The position numbers were made by a program, and so were the translations under genes. This document shows positions 35,893 through 56,618 of a DNA stretch of 64,000 nt, one piece after another (positions within the stretch are counted from its first letter, which is position 1; every line of letters starts with the position of its first letter). Origin of the DNA: Hydrogenimonas sp. (GTDB lineage: Bacteria > Campylobacterota > Campylobacteria > Campylobacterales > Hydrogenimonadaceae); the NCBI GenBank assembly GCA_003945285.1, contig AP019005.1, forward strand, positions 1,564,001 to 1,628,000, written 5' to 3'. The notes beneath the pieces were generated by a model. That model made no database searches. It was not told the origin of the DNA and was given only the letters and a program-made list of their open reading frames with translations.

Positions 35893-35983
35893 GGACAGGT
35901 GGGTGAGCTGGCTGAAACCACACCCCTGCTAAGGGTGCGTACCTTTACGGGTACCGAGGGTTCGAATCCCTCCCTGTCCGCCA
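35893..35983 (+). tRNA. serX: tRNA-Ser (anticodon GCU)
   Basis: 91 nt including encoded CCA. The acceptor GGACAGG pairs with CCTGTCC; the anticodon loop is CTGCTAA with GCT; there is a long class II variable arm and the T-loop GGTTCGAATCC. Discriminator G is as expected for serine. Immediately downstream begin the IS remnant and the CRISPR island. Confidence 0.95.
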
Positions 35984-36097
35984 TAACCTTCAAAAGCCCC
36001 ATTTTATGGGTATTTACTACTTAAAATAAAATAAATATCAGTCGTTTTCGAGGGTTTTCAGCTGACAGCGTCAGTAGCTTTTTCTTACCAGCTGACG

Positions 36098-36650
36098 TTA
36101 CGCAAGCCTCAACCGCTTCAACTCGGTCATAGCGGCGAGATTGGCTTTGACAAGCACCTTGGTTTTAAGGGCGAAATGGTTAAGGTAGTGCTTGATTTCC
36201 AGGCATTCAAGCTTGAAAACCGCAATCATGGACATGAGCGGAAGTGCTATCTGTGTCGTTGCTCTTTTCGTTGGTGATTTGGCCGATGCAGCATTGTATT
36301 TAAGTGGTTTGTGATACTCCTTGACTCTCCATCTTTTTAGATAGATTTTCGCTACTATATCGCCTGAAAGCGATATATCAGAGTAGACGAGATTGACTCG
36401 GACCTGTTTTCCATCTCTGTTTGTAAACCCAAATCTCTACGTACAGGAAGCACCTCTTTGTTGTAACCTTTGAGATAGCCTTGCAAAGTCTCGTTGTCTT
36501 GCAGCTCCAATGTACCTACTTTTAAATTCTGCCTGCTGTCTATCTTCAAGCTTGGGAATAGAGATACCGTTACTGTGGTAGATCATATATTTCTCTCTAT
36601 CTCCTATTACGAGCGTATTGCACTTTTTTGTGTCATATCGGTTATTTGTT
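36098..36650 (-). pseudogene. Decayed IS4-like transposase, C-terminal half
   Basis: Read on the minus strand it gives YDTKKCNTLVIGDREKYM, then after one in-frame TAG (36438-36436) continues DGKQVRVNLVYSDISLSGD and the YREK-like block LKRWRVKEYHKPLKYNAA-KSPTKR, ending RLRLA. The N-terminal half with the first catalytic residues is missing at the cas9 side. So this is a truncated, stop-containing remnant. Its stop codon lies inside the dispersed motif GACGTTACGCAA (36094-36105). A hairpin CTGAC/GTCAG lies at 36062-36074. The remainder of 35984-36097 shows nothing else. Confidence 0.75.
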
Positions 36651-36712: not shown

Positions 36713-39700
36713 ATGGGGAGAAAGATTTTTGCACTCGATTTGGGAATCACATCGTTGGGCTACTCTATACTGGAAGAGGTTGAGCAAAACAGCTACCATT
36801 GTATAGACAACAGTGTCATATTACGTGACAGCCCTTTTGATGATAAGGGGAACTCCAAACAGATGATTCGCCGCGCTCATGTAGGTGCGCGCAATCTAAA
36901 TAAAAAGAGAAAATATCGCATCATCAAAGTTGCAAAAACATTGGAAAATTTCGGAGTGCTTGATTTCGGGGAAGCTATGAAAGTTCAAAAAGAGAATCGA
37001 ATCATAAACAAATGGAAGCTCCGTGCCGAAGATGCTTTTTCACGTCCCTTATCCCACGAAGAACTTTTTGCTCTCTTTTCTCATATGGCAAAACACCGCG
37101 GATATAAGTCGATAGCAACCAAAGACCTGATATATGAGCTGGAAGCTGAGCTTGATCTCACCGGTGAACAGAGCAGTTCCGCAAATTTGGATGATGAAAG
37201 CCGTAAAATCTATGGCGCTTTGAATAAATTGGAAAAACTGAAAAAAAGATATCCGTCTGAAACTATAGCCCAAGTCATTCATAGAGCGGTACAAAGCGGT
37301 GAACTGCACTCCTATCGCAATCACGATGACTATGAAAAAATGATTCGCAGAGAAGATATAGAGCGTGAAATCGAGTCTGTTGTACTGCATCAATATAAAC
37401 TCGGAGCCATCGATATACCGGAAGAGAAGATCTCCGAACTCATCGGCGAACTCAATTCGTGTATCACCAAACAGGAGATGCCTACTATAGACGAGTCGCT
37501 TTTCGGAAAGTGCACCTTTTACAAAGATGAGACAGCGGCTCCCAGATATAGCTATCTCTATGACCTATACCGCCTCTACAAAAAGCTGGCAGACCTTCGT
37601 ATCGACGATTACGAAGTGACTAGGAACGACAGGGAACGGATCATAGAATGGGTGGAAGAGAAGATCTCTTCCGGAAAAAGCATCAAAAAGATCACCTACA
37701 GGGATTTGCGTAAAATTCTAGGTCTCTCTCCGGAGCAAAAGATATTTGGGCAGGATGATGAACAGATCATTAAGGGCAAAAAAGAGCCACGCACCTTCCT
37801 GCCCTTTTTCTTTCTCGCAGATATTAAAAAATTTAAAGATCTCTTCTCCAGTATCCAGCGGCATCCAGACTCCCGGCAGATCTTTCGCCGGATAGCGGAT
37901 ATCCTTCAGCGTTCCAAGACTCCCCGGGAGGCTCTGGATCGACTTCGGATTTTGATGGCGGATGAAGGAATCGAAGCACCAGACCGAGAGCTTCTCGAGC
38001 TCTTCAAAAACAAAAAGGCAGGCACTCAGGAACTCTCTCACCGTTTTATATGTGAAGCACTGCCTCTTTTCCTGGAGGGGTATGACGAAAAAGAGATTCA
38101 GAAGCTTCTCGGCTTCACTGATACCGAGGATTACAGCCGCTACCCCAAATCTCTTCGTCATCTGCATCTTGGCGAAGGCAACCTTTTCGAAAAAGAGGAG
38201 GGTGTCATTAACAACCATGCCGTCAAATCACTTGCTTCCTGGGCACTTGGTATCACCGCCGATCTAAGCTGGCGTTACGGACCATTCGATGAGATCATTC
38301 TGGAGACCACCAGGGACGCTCTTCCCGAAAAGATTCGCAAACAGATCGAAAAGGCAATGGGTGAACGAGAGAAAATACTGGAAAAGATAATAGAGAAGTA
38401 CAAGAAAGAGTTTCCCTTCATCGATAAACGCCTCGCAAGAAAGATCCGGCTATGGGAGCATCAAAAAGGGCTAGATCTCTACTCCGGCGATATGATCAAC
38501 CTCACTCAGCTCCTCGACGGCAGTGCCGATATCGAACACATAGTCCCCAAGAGCCTTGGAGGTCTAAGCGCCGACTACAACACTGTCGTCGCACTCAAAA
38601 ACACCAACGCGGCGAAAGGCAACCGACTCCCCGGTGACTGGCTCGCCGGCAATTCCGACTATCGCAAACGGGTCGAGATGCTCTTTGAAAAAGGTCTTAT
38701 AGACTGGAAAAAGTGCAAAAACCTTCTCGCCGTATCCCTCGATGAAATCTACACTGAAAATATCCACAGTAAAGGCATCCGCGCCACCAGCTATCTCGAA
38801 GCGCTGGTGGCCCGGCTCCTCAAGCGCTACTACCCCTTCCCCGATCCGGAACTGAGAAAGAACGGCTCAGGAGTCAGGATGATTCCCGGCAAGGTCACCA
38901 GCAAAACCAGATCTCTTCTTGGAATCAAATCCAAAAGCCGCGAAACCAGCTTCCACCATGCCGAAGACGCCCTGATTCTATCCACCCTTACCAGAGGCTG
39001 GCAAAACCGCCTTCATCGGATGCTGCGGGAGAATTACGGCAAAAGCGAAGCGGAACTCAAAGAGATTTGGAAAAAATATACTCCCCATATCGATGGACTC
39101 ACGCTGGCTGATTATATCGACGAGGCTTTCAACCGCTTTATGTCCAAAGGGGAAGATAGTCTCTTCTACCGTGATATGTTCGGCGGTATCCGCAGCGTCT
39201 CCTACTGGGTAAACAAAAAGCCGCTCTCAGCCTCTTCCCACAAGGAGAGTGTCTACTCCTCCAGACACGACGTCCCCACCCTTCGCAAAAATATCCTCAA
39301 AGCCTTCGACGAGCTCAATGTCCAAAAAAACCGCCATAAACTTACGGCTGAAGAGTTCATGAAGCTATACGACAAAAAGATTCGTCAGAAGCTTTGGCTC
39401 CACCACATCGGCAACACCAACGACGAGAGCTACCGTGCCGTGGAGTCCCGCGCGGCCCGAATCGCCCAAACCCTCACCCGTTATCAACTCATGGATGCAA
39501 AAGGCGACAAGGAGATCGACGAGGAGTTTAAGCAAACACTCAAAGAACTGGTCGAATCTCCCATCGAGGTCAATGGCAAGCAGCTGAGGAAAATGCGTTT
39601 CTATACAAATGAAAGAGTATTTCAAATTAATCGGGGCGCTGTTGTATCAGACAAAAATATGATAGGTGTTCAAATCACCAAAGGCCGCAAAAAAAAGATC

Positions 39701-40102
39701 ATCATCCGCCGCATGGATGTCAATAACGCTATAGAGCTTCAAAAAGAGAAATCAAGTATGCTCTGCTACCTCAACGAAACGCTTTTTATTTTCAATAAAA
39801 GCGGATTAGTACATTACGGCTGTTTACGAAGTTATCTGGAAAACAAGCAAGGCGCAAAACTCATCGCCTTATTCAATCCCCGTTTTCCGGCCAATCCAAA
39901 AGCACAACCCCTGAAATTTTCTGACAATAATCAAATCAAACAGGTGAGCATCGGCAGCGCTACCGGTGTCATCAAAGCACACCTTGATCTAGACGGCCGT
40001 GTGAAGAGCTTCGAAGTCTTCGGTATGCTTCCCGAAGGTGCCGTGGGGTGGTTCAAAAAGGAGTCTGGCTATGGCAGCCTGGAAGACGATCCGCATCACT
40101 AA
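36713..40102 (+). CDS. cas9: Compact type II-C Cas9 endonuclease
   Basis: 1129 residues from ATG (AAAAGG about 8 nt upstream; a GTG two codons earlier is possible). RuvC-I FALDLGITSLGYS with D9, bridge-helix region HVGARNLNKKRKYRI, RuvC-II EIILETTRD with E531, HNH ADIEHIVPKSLGG with H609, and RuvC-III FHHAEDALIL with H749 and D752 are all intact, so an active nuclease is expected. From memory the sequence strongly resembles the 1132-residue Nitratifractor salsuginis Cas9, with near-identical stretches around HNH and RuvC-III. It cuts DNA guided by crRNA and tracrRNA. The first half looks more A+T-rich than the surrounding chromosome. The stop overlaps cas1 by 32 nt. Confidence 0.97.
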   Translation: MGRKIFALDLGITSLGYSILEEVEQNSYHCIDNSVILRDSPFDDKGNSKQMIRRAHVGARNLNKKRKYRIIKVAKTLENFGVLDFGEAMKVQKENRIINKWKLRAEDAFSRPLSHEELFALFSHMAKHRGYKSIATKDLIYELEAELDLTGEQSSSANLDDESRKIYGALNKLEKLKKRYPSETIAQVIHRAVQSGELHSYRNHDDYEKMIRREDIEREIESVVLHQYKLGAIDIPEEKISELIGELNSCITKQEMPTIDESLFGKCTFYKDETAAPRYSYLYDLYRLYKKLADLRIDDYEVTRNDRERIIEWVEEKISSGKSIKKITYRDLRKILGLSPEQKIFGQDDEQIIKGKKEPRTFLPFFFLADIKKFKDLFSSIQRHPDSRQIFRRIADILQRSKTPREALDRLRILMADEGIEAPDRELLELFKNKKAGTQELSHRFICEALPLFLEGYDEKEIQKLLGFTDTEDYSRYPKSLRHLHLGEGNLFEKEEGVINNHAVKSLASWALGITADLSWRYGPFDEIILETTRDALPEKIRKQIEKAMGEREKILEKIIEKYKKEFPFIDKRLARKIRLWEHQKGLDLYSGDMINLTQLLDGSADIEHIVPKSLGGLSADYNTVVALKNTNAAKGNRLPGDWLAGNSDYRKRVEMLFEKGLIDWKKCKNLLAVSLDEIYTENIHSKGIRATSYLEALVARLLKRYYPFPDPELRKNGSGVRMIPGKVTSKTRSLLGIKSKSRETSFHHAEDALILSTLTRGWQNRLHRMLRENYGKSEAELKEIWKKYTPHIDGLTLADYIDEAFNRFMSKGEDSLFYRDMFGGIRSVSYWVNKKPLSASSHKESVYSSRHDVPTLRKNILKAFDELNVQKNRHKLTAEEFMKLYDKKIRQKLWLHHIGNTNDESYRAVESRAARIAQTLTRYQLMDAKGDKEIDEEFKQTLKELVESPIEVNGKQLRKMRFYTNERVFQINRGAVVSDKNMIGVQITKGRKKKIIIRRMDVNNAIELQKEKSSMLCYLNETLFIFNKSGLVHYGCLRSYLENKQGAKLIALFNPRFPANPKAQPLKFSDNNQIKQVSIGSATGVIKAHLDLDGRVKSFEVFGMLPEGAVGWFKKESGYGSLEDDPHH

Positions 40103-40985
40103 GCCCTGCCGGCTCAGTATAGAGAACGGAAATCTCGTCGTCGAAGATGAGACCATGAGGGTCAAGCTCTCACTCCCCGATACCGACAGTATCATCTTCG
40201 AGGGTGACCGCTTCACCATCAGCGCCAAAGTCCTGGCCGCCCTGAGCAGGCACAAAGTCGCCACTCTATTCTGCGACGAATACTACATGCCCACTGCCAT
40301 TCTCCACCCCTATCACCAGAGCTCTCTGGCCACCAAAACTCTCAAGGCACAGCTCTCGATGCCAGATGAACTCCGCGACCGGATCTGGCAAGAGATAGTC
40401 CGCGTCAAGATTCTCAACCAGTCTTCCGTACTCCGCAACTTCTCCAAGATGTACACCAAACTCGAAACCTATGCCGACCATATCCGCCCCGGCGACCCCT
40501 ACCGTGCCGAGGCCAAAAGCGCGCGACTCTACTGGAAGGAGCTGTTTACGGATCTCAAGAGGGAAGCCGACTCGCTCGATGTGCGCAACCAGGCCCTCAA
40601 CTACGCCTATGCCATTCTGCGCAGCCTCGTCACCCGCGACCTCAGCGCTGCAGGTTTCCTTCCGGCACTAGGTCTCTGTCACGACAATCGCTACAACGCT
40701 TTCAACCTCAGCGACGATCTCATGGAGCCTTTTAGGCCCATTGTCGACGCGGCGCTCTATTTTCTCCTGCAACGTTACGAAGAGGAGCAGCTGAACCCGG
40801 AGTTTAAAAAAGCCATCATCTCCATCTTCGACAGCGAATACGTGGTCTATGAAGCGGGGCTTTCGGCCATTCGTACCGTCTCAACCAGATATATTCATGG
40901 CTTCAAAGCCACGGTAAAAAGCGCAAATATAGAGAGTCTACACTTTCCCACTATCGACTTCAAGGCACTTCGTGAGTGCTTTTAG
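40071..40985 (+). CDS. cas1: Type II-C Cas1 integrase
   Basis: 304 residues. The start is fixed by AAGGAG 7 nt before ATG 40071, inside the end of cas9. Integrase residues are recognisable: a glutamate in SARLYWKELF, histidine and aspartate in GLCHDNRYNAFNLSDDLMEP. Together with Cas2 it inserts new spacers. The overlap with cas9 and cas2 indicates one polycistronic message. Confidence 0.95.
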   Translation: MAAWKTIRITKPCRLSIENGNLVVEDETMRVKLSLPDTDSIIFEGDRFTISAKVLAALSRHKVATLFCDEYYMPTAILHPYHQSSLATKTLKAQLSMPDELRDRIWQEIVRVKILNQSSVLRNFSKMYTKLETYADHIRPGDPYRAEAKSARLYWKELFTDLKREADSLDVRNQALNYAYAILRSLVTRDLSAAGFLPALGLCHDNRYNAFNLSDDLMEPFRPIVDAALYFLLQRYEEEQLNPEFKKAIISIFDSEYVVYEAGLSAIRTVSTRYIHGFKATVKSANIESLHFPTIDFKALRECF

Positions 40986-41304
40986 AATCATGTGGCTTGT
41001 AGTAATGTTCGATCTACCCACCCAAACAAAAAAGGAGCGCAAGCGATATAGGTGGTTTGTCAATTTTCTGGACAAAGAAGCTTATATTCGCCTGCAGTAT
41101 TCCGTATACGCCAAAGTTTTCAACTCGCTTGAATCGGCCAATTACGGTAAGAAAAGGCTCAAAGAGTTTCTCGACATCAATGTCAAGAAAGGCAATGTAC
41201 GAATCATTCTATTCACTGACAGCCAATTTGGGAAAATGGAGATAATCGTCGGAGAATCCACCCCTCAGCAAGAGCAGGCAGAGCGCTCACTCTTCGATTT
41301 TTAA
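40972..41304 (+). CDS. cas2: Cas2 spacer-acquisition subunit
   Basis: 110 residues from GTG 40972 with AAGG 6 nt upstream, overlapping the cas1 end by 14 nt. An ATG at 40990 is an alternative. Ferredoxin-like fold with the conserved aspartate in VVMFDLPT and RWFVNFLDKEAYIRLQYSVY. It forms the structural core of the Cas1-Cas2 complex. No csn2 or cas4 is present, confirming subtype II-C. Confidence 0.95.
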   Translation: MSAFRIMWLVVMFDLPTQTKKERKRYRWFVNFLDKEAYIRLQYSVYAKVFNSLESANYGKKRLKEFLDINVKKGNVRIILFTDSQFGKMEIIVGESTPQQEQAERSLFDF

Positions 41305-41315
41305 TGTTGAGCAGC

Positions 41316-41340
41316 AAAAAAGCCTGTCCGAAAACAGGCT
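41316..41340 (-). terminator. tracrRNA terminator
   Basis: Stem AGCCTGT/ACAGGCT closed by TTTTCGG-type loop bases and followed by six Ts on the minus strand. In the other direction it also follows the cas2 stop by 11 nt. Confidence 0.85.
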
Positions 41341-41409
41341 CTAAAATGGAACTGTCGTAACAGTTCTTGATTTTAAGACCCCTCAAAAAATCCCTGACCT
41401 GTTACAACA
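41316..41409 (-). ncRNA. tracrRNA
   Basis: On the minus strand, the anti-repeat (41408-41370) is complementary to the CRISPR repeat with a small internal bulge (TTTTTT versus the repeat's AAAA region). A perfect 7-bp hairpin GAACTGT/ACAGTTC with a TACG loop follows. The RNA ends in a terminator hairpin AGCCTGT/ACAGGCT and a T6 run at 41340-41316. The promoter at 41444-41416 places the 5' end at about 41409, right at the anti-repeat. The RNA should pair with crRNA and be bound by Cas9. About 94 nt. Confidence 0.92.
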
Positions 41410-41415
41410 AAATCT

Positions 41416-41444
41416 ATTTTACAACAAATCAGATCTGTTTTCAA
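41416..41444 (-). promoter_or_regulatory. tracrRNA promoter
   Basis: Minus strand TTGAAA (41444-41439), exactly 17 nt, TAAAAT (41421-41416). This predicts transcription from about 41409. Confidence 0.8.
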
Positions 41445-41480
41445 GTTTTTGTTTTTATAAAACTGAGAAATTTTTTAGCG

Positions 41481-42242
41481 GTTTTAAGACCCCTCAAAAC
41501 CCTGACCTGTTACAATACATTCTTGCTATAATACCCCTATGCCACGGTTTTAAGACCCCTCAAAACCCTGACCTGTTACAATGGTACAATTGTACGGGTT
41601 GAGCTCCAATTTGTTTTAAGACCCCTCAAAACCCTGACCTGTTACAATAGCTTATTTCGATACGTAAGACGTTCATATGTTTTAAGACCCCTCAAAACCC
41701 TGACCTGTTACAATAGCACATATCGTAAGGTATACTGAGCCCCCGTTTTAAGACCCCTCAAAACCCTGACCTGTTACAATCTGATCTTCGGAAAAGCGGA
41801 AGTGTTCGGTGTTTTAAGACCCCTCAAAACCCTGACCTGTTACAATCTGATCTTCGGAAAAGCGGAAGTGTTCGGTGTTTTAAGACCCCTCAAAACCCTG
41901 ACCTGTTACAATGAAACCGGGACTGGAAGAGCTAGGCTGGTTGTTTTAAGACCCCTCAAAACCCTGACCTGTTACAATGAAGGGTAAAAAGAAAGCTGGG
42001 AAGCCTATGTTTTAAGACCCCTCAAAACCCTGACCTGTTACAATGACTCATTGTTTAACCTTCCCGGCTGCAATGTTTTAAGACCCCTCAAAACCCTGAC
42101 CTGTTACAATTGCCGCCACTGAGAAAACACCGTGAAATATGTTTTAAGACCCCTCAAAACCCTGACCTGTTACAATAGGGCTAAAGGCGGCTAAAAACTT
42201 CCTCTTGTTTTAAGACCCCTCAAAACCCTGACCTGTTACAAT
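41481..42242 (+). CRISPR. Type II-C CRISPR array, 12 repeats and 11 spacers
   Basis: Twelve identical 36-bp repeats (first GTTTTAAGACCCC, last CCTGACCTGTTACAAT) start at 41481, 41547, 41613, 41679, 41745, 41811, 41877, 41943, 42009, 42075, 42141 and 42207. All spacers are 30 nt. Spacers 5 (41781-41810) and 6 (41847-41876) are identical. The repeat 3' end TGTTACAAT is an extended -10 box, so each repeat should drive the following spacer on the plus strand. The tracrRNA anti-repeat orientation independently says the plus strand is the crRNA strand. Confidence 0.98.
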
Positions 42243-54487: not shown

Positions 54488-56383
54488 TCAGTGGCGTATT
54501 ATGAAGTAATCGGCTCCCTGCCTGCTCAAAACATGAATATCGTGCTCTTCGTCGATTCCGTGCAGAAGAAGTTTCACGCCGAAAGTCTTCAATATAGGTA
54601 TGAGAGAGTCCCTGAAAGAGTCGCTCATATCGGTAAACTGCCCGACATACATCTTTACATACTCCGGCCGTGCCGTTTTGAGCAGCTCCACGGTATCGCT
54701 GTCGGCATCGAACCGGCTTATCGCGAAAGAGAGGTTCTCCCTGTGCAGTTCATCCGTTATCTGCCTCAATGTGGTTACGTCGATCTTGGAGAGGTCACTT
54801 TCCGGTATCTCTATGATCAACTCCACTCCGCGCTTCTGCAGAAGCCTGATATACTCCTTCACCTTCTCGAAGAGTCTTGGCGTTGCAAGGCAGTTCAGGG
54901 GATATTCGACAGCGATACGGTTGTTCTGCAGGATGGGAACGGAGTCGAGATACCCCATAGTATACTCTATATATTTGGGAAAGAGCTTGAGCAGACGAAG
55001 CATAGAGAGATATGTACTATATGGAATTCTCTCACCTTCCGTCGTAATTATATCGAAGGTGATCGATGCAAAAAGTTTGTGCCTGTTGATAGCGTGAACA
55101 TCCTCCCATACCGGTTCCATACGGTGCTCCTTCATAGACTCCTCAAGAAGTGTACGCCATGCCACCTTGTTCATAGGCAGAGAGCTCTCCCTCTTGGCCA
55201 CAACTACGGCATCTCCACTCTTGAAGAGAGCTTCGTTGAGAGCCAGGTCGACGGATGAGAGAACCTGGCTGATCGGCTCCCTGTGCTCATATGCCGAAAT
55301 TGCAGCATCCGCAAACAGCGTTCCGGAGACCTCTTTGAATTGAGTGTCGATCAGCTCTCTTATCTCGGAGACAATAAGCTCCGCCAGAGTTTTGGCATGT
55401 TCCGTATCCAGCGAAGGGAGCAGCAGCACAAACTCGGTACCAGATACCCTGAAGCAGGCAGCATCGTCTATGTCAACGATATTTTGCAAAACTATTTTGG
55501 AGATCTTCACATAAATACGGTCGACCATATCGAAACCTATGATCTTGTTGGCCTCTTGAACGTCCGCAAGCCTCACCGCCAGGACTACACCCCACCCCCT
55601 GTTGTCCTCTGCATTGGAGTATTCGTCATATTTGATCATGAAAAACCTGCGGTTTCCGACTTTAGTCAACGGATCGATATACTCAAGCTCCCTGTTTTTG
55701 GCCATAACAGATGAAAGAGTTTCGTGGCCCTTCTTCATCCGCCTGACCATCTGGTTCATAGCCATAGAGACATGCTTGAGCTCGACCGTGGAGGGAGTTT
55801 CATCCTGAATGATGAAGCGGTTGTGCAAAACCCCCTCGGCTTGCCTGATAACCGTCTTCAGCGGCTCGAGAATGATACTTAGAAGGATGTAGATAAAAAG
55901 AGCACCCAAAGCTCCGCCAACAATGAAAATAATAAGTATCTTTTTGAAAAAGGCGTAGAGGTAGTCGAGAGCCTCCGAAGTCTCCACCTGTACTGTGAGC
56001 GGGCCTATAACGCGCCATTTGTCGAACACCTCCGCCACAGCCGTATCGGATGAGAGGTCGGCCAGCTTCAAGAACCAGGAAGGTACCTCGGCCGCGACGT
56101 CACTCTTCTTTTCGAAGATGATGTTTCCGTACCGATCCTGCAGTAAAATCCTCTTTATCCGTCCGCTTTTGAAAACGGCATCTGCCATTTTGGACATAGC
56201 CGCTATGTCGCCGCCGGCCTGCGACATCATGAGGCTCAGTGAAGTTGCGGTATCCTGCGCTTTGGTGAAAAGTTCGTTTTGAACATAGTGTCTGCTGTCG
56301 ATAAAGCCTATTCCCAGTACCGTCCCCAATACAAGTAGAAGAATTATGGAAAAAACGGCGTTTATCTGCCTGAAGAGTGTCAC
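54488..56383 (-). CDS. Second LapD-like protein, degenerate GGDEF/EAL
   Basis: 631 residues with the same architecture as the product at 42306-44192: TM1 (about 8-26), LapD/MoxY periplasmic domain (about 27-150), TM2, HAMP, GGDEF-like domain (FRVSGTEFVLLLP in place of GGDEF) and EAL-like domain lacking EAL. Shared segments such as RFIIQDE-like HAMP exits and DMSDSFRDSL near the end show that the two are paralogues. No LapG gene is beside it, so it may compete for the same protease or serve another output. Confidence 0.82.
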   Translation of the reverse strand: MTLFRQINAVFSIILLLVLGTVLGIGFIDSRHYVQNELFTKAQDTATSLSLMMSQAGGDIAAMSKMADAVFKSGRIKRILLQDRYGNIIFEKKSDVAAEVPSWFLKLADLSSDTAVAEVFDKWRVIGPLTVQVETSEALDYLYAFFKKILIIFIVGGALGALFIYILLSIILEPLKTVIRQAEGVLHNRFIIQDETPSTVELKHVSMAMNQMVRRMKKGHETLSSVMAKNRELEYIDPLTKVGNRRFFMIKYDEYSNAEDNRGWGVVLAVRLADVQEANKIIGFDMVDRIYVKISKIVLQNIVDIDDAACFRVSGTEFVLLLPSLDTEHAKTLAELIVSEIRELIDTQFKEVSGTLFADAAISAYEHREPISQVLSSVDLALNEALFKSGDAVVVAKRESSLPMNKVAWRTLLEESMKEHRMEPVWEDVHAINRHKLFASITFDIITTEGERIPYSTYLSMLRLLKLFPKYIEYTMGYLDSVPILQNNRIAVEYPLNCLATPRLFEKVKEYIRLLQKRGVELIIEIPESDLSKIDVTTLRQITDELHRENLSFAISRFDADSDTVELLKTARPEYVKMYVGQFTDMSDSFRDSLIPILKTFGVKLLLHGIDEEHDIHVLSRQGADYFIIRH

Positions 56384-56618
56384 CCTCTATTCCTTTCACC
56401 CCTTACGCTTCAATTCCCCTTTATAGGGCCCTTCGGCACCGATTTGCAAGATTATACCGAAACTTTATAAATCGGATGTAAAAAAATATCCGCTATACAT
56501 AAATCAAACTTATGAACTCTCCATATATTCCTGAAGTGATCCAAACATCCCCCCTTCTTCACAATCATATTTGTGGTATACTCCAACCCTACGTAACTGC
56601 AAAACAAGGAGAAAAAAA

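Follow-up and report, generated by a model that had tools for sequence, protein, structure and literature searches.

A complete type II-C CRISPR-Cas9 locus of the Nitratifractor salsuginis family with a probably mosaic Cas9

The window, by which we mean the whole stretch of 64,000 nucleotides analysed here, covers bases 1,564,001-1,628,000 of a Campylobacterales chromosome that consists of a single contig of 2,193,435 bp. At a tRNA-Ser site it carries what we read, with high confidence, as a type II-C adaptive immune locus of the Nitratifractor salsuginis family, in which the cas9 gene is probably a mosaic. The pattern of genes, repeats and tracrRNA at the locus (Table 1) is not a product of chance. 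Judged by its sequence, the locus appears complete and intact, and it belongs to a kind known before. It is an ordinary CRISPR-Cas system with one unexpected feature, the front fifth of its Cas9, which apparently derives from another branch of the family to which the rest belongs.

Table 1. Features of the CRISPR-Cas9 locus and its borders (positions in the window).
Feature	Position	Strand	Remarks
tRNA-Ser(GCT)	35893..35983	+	homology with related species lacking the locus ends about 85 nt downstream, at the edge of the variable site
decayed insertion-sequence transposase remnant	36101..36549	-	two frames; single copy in the genome; 48.6% to annotated transposases
cas9	36713..40102	+	1129 aa; D9, E531, D606/H609/N632, H749/D752 intact
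cas9 codons 1-240 (RuvC-I, bridge helix, start of REC)	36713..37432	+	AT-rich; about 60% to all relatives
cas9 codons 961-1000 (start of C-terminal domain)	39593..39712	+	divergent, AT-rich; 52% to N. salsuginis versus about 80% around
cas1	40071..40985	+	304 aa; 32 nt overlap with cas9
cas2	40972..41304	+	110 aa; GTG start; 14 nt overlap with cas1
tracrRNA	41314..41412	-	anti-repeat 41412-41372, hairpin 41366-41349, terminator-like hairpin 41340-41321 followed by a U-run
A+T-rich leader side of array	41413..41480	+	
sigma-70-like promoter of tracrRNA	41416..41444	-	TTGAAA-17-TAAAAT, 10/12 match
CRISPR array	41481..42242	+	12 identical 36-nt repeats, 11 spacers of exactly 30 nt

Results

Gene content and subtype

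The initial annotation had described a complete, compact type II-C locus with tightly overlapping cas1 and cas2, 12 identical repeats, a tracrRNA and a Cas9 of 1129 residues with four intact nuclease motifs, and all of this held. The residues D9, E531, D606, H609, N632, H749 and D752 are present in Cas9 and conserved in nearly all of its relatives. The cas9 reading frame spans 36707/36713-40102; the ATG at 36713, with AAGG 8 nt upstream, gives the 1129 residues, and a GTG two codons before it is also open as an alternative start. Family profiles recognized Cas9 (TIGR01865, 361.8 bits for a cut-off of 100, E 9.6e-108), Cas1 (TIGR03639, 259.9 bits, E 2.6e-77; PADLOC Cas1_II, 301 bits) and Cas2 (TIGR01573, E 1.3e-17; PADLOC Cas2_II, 120.5 bits). 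The hallmarks of type II were found together: RuvC (D, E, H, D) and HNH (D, H, N) residues in Cas9, type II Cas1 and Cas2 adjoining cas9, and a tracrRNA with an anti-repeat complementary to the repeat. The predicted structure of Cas9 was a poor model (mean pLDDT 49) and was left aside.

From the transposase remnant to the LapD-like gene, the only ORFs are cas9, cas1 and cas2. With neither csn2 (II-A) nor cas4 (II-B) among them, the gene content is that of type II-C. It is very improbable that the locus is of a different subtype (II-A, II-B or Cas9d/II-D). A weak match to the Cas9d model NF049971 points that way, but at 135.8 bits it lies far under the cut-off of 375, which does not make this protein a Cas9d; a family profile search gave no match to the II-B Cas9 model, and csn2 and cas4 are lacking. 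Among solved structures, the best phmmer matches reached 117 bits, presumably Neisseria-type II-C Cas9s, and stand above a 79-bit match which we take to be SaCas9. The assignment to II-C is thus a likely one, drawn from gene content and the closest solved structures.

The tracrRNA

The tracrRNA is encoded on the minus strand, in the interval separating cas2 from the array, where 41372-41412 form a degenerate copy of the repeat that on this strand reads as an anti-repeat. Folding of the region gave a z-score of -3.8, and co-folding of repeat and anti-repeat gave a 36-bp duplex that takes in every position of the repeat and is interrupted by a single 3-nt bulge, at -78 kcal/mol. An element at the equivalent place and strand was found in eight related loci. 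Across these nine loci, the window included, both tail hairpins stay paired despite base changes, in a compensatory manner: as judged by eye from the sequences, paired arms read GAACTGT/ACAGTTC in the window, GACCGT/ACGGTC in the congeneric genome G007, GGCTGTC/GACAGCC in L013 and GTACTGT/ACAGTAC in L014 and L015. The middle of the repeat and the middle of the anti-repeat also co-vary between loci. A search of Rfam gave no match for the element. The tracrRNA is real, and we infer that it is transcribed, from the sigma-70-like promoter given in Table 1; it would pair with each repeat.

Array, spacers and the question of function

As spacers 5 and 6 are identical, the 11 spacers of the array amount to 10 distinct ones. 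An extended -10-like 9-mer, TGTTACAAT, closes each of the 12 repeats, and the repeats of L014, L015 and G147 carry TGTTATAAT as their form of it. In N. meningitidis, work cited by PMC7038990 showed transcription from an extended -10 element inside each repeat. By analogy, crRNAs would here probably be transcribed, on the plus strand, from the extended -10 at the end of every repeat. Cas1 and Cas2 would insert the 30-bp spacers at the leader end, the crRNA:tracrRNA duplex would load Cas9, and its HNH and RuvC domains would cut matching DNA; the "apparently active" Cas9 of the initial annotation is a prediction of the same kind, read from sequence.

Identical repeats and one duplicated spacer are compatible with an active array, and equally with a recently copied one. 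A search of 150 related genomes with the 10 distinct spacers found no protospacer; only the array itself was matched beyond chance level, and no self-targeting spacer came to light. Nor were protospacers found in phages or plasmids, or, for seven spacers, by exact scans of viral contigs. The locus could in principle be a non-functional relic, intact in sequence and conferring no effective immunity. The spacers without protospacers in all these searches, their number of just 10 distinct ones and the decayed transposase that adjoins the locus would fit such a relic. However, cas9, cas1 and cas2 are all open, the catalytic residues, the tracrRNA, the promoter-like element and the repeats are intact, and repeat and anti-repeat have changed together relative to the relatives, whose arrays hold 3-40 repeats in the same arrangement. 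We consider a relic unlikely.

Spacers are also repeated in the array of G147 (L068), where one is present twice and two others, AAAGAAAATTATCGACAACATGACATCTGA and AAAGAAAATAATCGACAACATGACATCAGA, are near-identical, as if taken from two variants of one target.

Relatives of the Cas9

The Cas9 and its N. salsuginis (G040) counterpart share 76.4% identity over the full length, which bears out the close relationship proposed in the initial annotation; identity is well over half along the protein, as expected of a member of this family. Two other Cas9s, from G007 and from G065, a member of another family of bacteria, are equally close (76% each). Further full-length relatives at 56-68% were found in Campylobacterota (L018, L013, L014, L015, G147, G259), as well as partial ones (L016, G006/L017, L019) and a sister group at 33-37% in other Campylobacterales. 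No viral contig encodes a relative. The view that the protein offers a second reference point for a small, little-sampled branch was therefore overstated, given these relatives and the fact that the N. salsuginis enzyme (Nsa Cas9) has already been characterised (PMC7606464).

Among the 18 genomes of the genus, this Cas9 occurs only in the window genome, G007 and G006. As it is carried by three of 18 and an equally close one is found in another family (N. salsuginis), horizontal spread is likely.

In three Cas9s at about 33% identity (L073, L074 and L075, from G263, G238 and G295, respectively), D is replaced by E or Q at the position of the first acidic residue of HNH, and in G263 and G295 the repeats have the opposite orientation relative to cas9. 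A congeneric genome has a different Cas9 (L012, in G004:C136), an open frame of about 1187 aa with 31% identity, one matched piece of which runs through a TGA.

Genomic site

The segment 35984-42300 is a variable chromosomal site downstream of the tRNA-Ser(GCT) gene. Homology with the congeneric genomes G005 and G001 ends at 36067-36068. In G005, the interval from the tRNA to the LapD-like gene is occupied by a gene resembling a chemotaxis receptor and by a short piece of IS-like sequence, both named by eye from sequence. A second LapD-like GGDEF/EAL gene lies in the window at about 54506-56398 on the minus strand (G000:C1:1618506-1620398); as its match contains two in-frame stops, it is probably a pseudogene or a match across two frames. 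Outside the window, the same chromosome carries a type III-A (Csm) system (L094, G000:C1:2074000-2092000). It comprises cas6, cas10, csm2-csm5, cas1 and cas2, encodes a Csm6/Csx1 protein of the CARF-HEPN type and has an array with about 30 repeats.

Different segments of Cas9 have incongruent relationships

Identity to N. salsuginis Cas9, taken in blocks of 40 residues, is uneven: 48-62% over residues 1-200, 72% over 201-240, 75-98% over 241-960, 52% over 961-1000 and 72-82% thereafter. The N. salsuginis, G007 and G065 proteins are 65-100% identical to one another throughout, and residues 961-1000 of the window Cas9 are unlike those of every relative. When the four close Cas9s are compared, the substitutions found only in the window protein cluster in the direction of the N-terminus (p 0.0006 by permutation) and again in residues 965-989 (p 0.005). 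G+C content is 38-44% in codons 1-240 and 40% in codons 961-1000, versus mostly 47-59% elsewhere in cas9 and in cas1.

The trees disagree likewise. A clade of the window Cas9 with those of N. salsuginis, G007 and G065 is supported at 100/100 for residues 241-690 and at 100/99 for residues 691-1129. On the N-terminus this clade, which had been defined from the other parts of Cas9, was rejected by the AU test, with p 0.00017 for residues 1-200 and about 0.002 for residues 1-240. For the N-terminus, the test rejected neither a grouping with the six nearest members (p 0.36) nor a pairing with L014 (p 0.41). Common ancestry with the N. salsuginis, G007 and G065 clade thus appears not to extend along the whole protein.

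We conclude that the Cas9 is probably a mosaic, the first 240 or so codons and the stretch near 961-1000 having an ancestry different from that of the remainder. The incongruent trees would be explained most simply by recombination with a different branch of the family. A chimera created during assembly is an unlikely source, because the whole genome is one contig and the cas9 frame is unbroken.

It could also be that the locus is as described and that Cas9 is no mosaic, residues 1-240 and 961-1000 having simply evolved faster, for instance under anti-CRISPR pressure. No donor of residues 1-240 was found in 397 genomes of the phylum, the best match being about 60%, so accelerated change at the N-terminus keeps some weight; moreover, the N-terminal tree places the window Cas9 on a long branch (0.55) whose exact place is not fixed. 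Faster evolution, however, accords poorly with the rejection of the clade by the AU test, with residues 1-44 being closer to L014 (79-82%) than to N. salsuginis (50%), with a segment that does not have the two-residue insertion common to N. salsuginis, G007, G065 and G006, and with shifts of third-position G+C at matching places. We regard it as the less probable explanation, with a minor share of our belief.

Discussion

Our analysis points to an N. salsuginis-family type II-C locus with a mosaic cas9. A limited literature search found no report of intragenic recombination in Cas9 orthologs. A more specific proposal is that, on an N. salsuginis-like body, the part from RuvC-I through the bridge helix into the beginning of REC and, in a separate event, a short stretch opening the C-terminal domain were replaced by their counterparts from another branch, and that guide handling or the PAM was altered as a result. 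We put this forward tentatively, as a doubtful extension of the mosaic reading.

Among known systems, the II-C locus of N. meningitidis shares the HNH/RuvC layout of Cas9 and repeats that end in an extended -10-like 9-mer. Its Cas9 is distant, at 117 bits only by phmmer, and its tracrRNA tail is presumably different from that of the window. The loci of G007 and G065 are much closer and have a common layout with that of the window; they differ in that their whole Cas9 groups with N. salsuginis, whereas the N-terminus of the window protein stands apart.

The II-C system of N. salsuginis DSM 16511 resembles the window locus in its proteins (76% identity for Cas9, 84% for Cas1 and 76% for Cas2), in gene order and in a tracrRNA that lies between cas2 and the array and is encoded on the opposite strand. 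Its 36-nt repeat shares a core with the window repeat and differs only in the middle, as does the anti-repeat; the other difference lies in the two divergent stretches of Cas9. Nsa Cas9 was purified and assayed: it is active above 60 °C, requires a guide of more than 20 nt, recognizes a degenerate PAM and makes 5'-staggered cuts (PMC7606464). PAM, temperature range and guide length are measured features of that enzyme. To the family of this one heat-tolerant, biochemically characterised compact Cas9, the locus adds an intact member with a defined tracrRNA of its own. If the mosaic is true, the window and N. salsuginis Cas9s would make a natural chimera pair for mapping guide recognition, PAM and temperature range.
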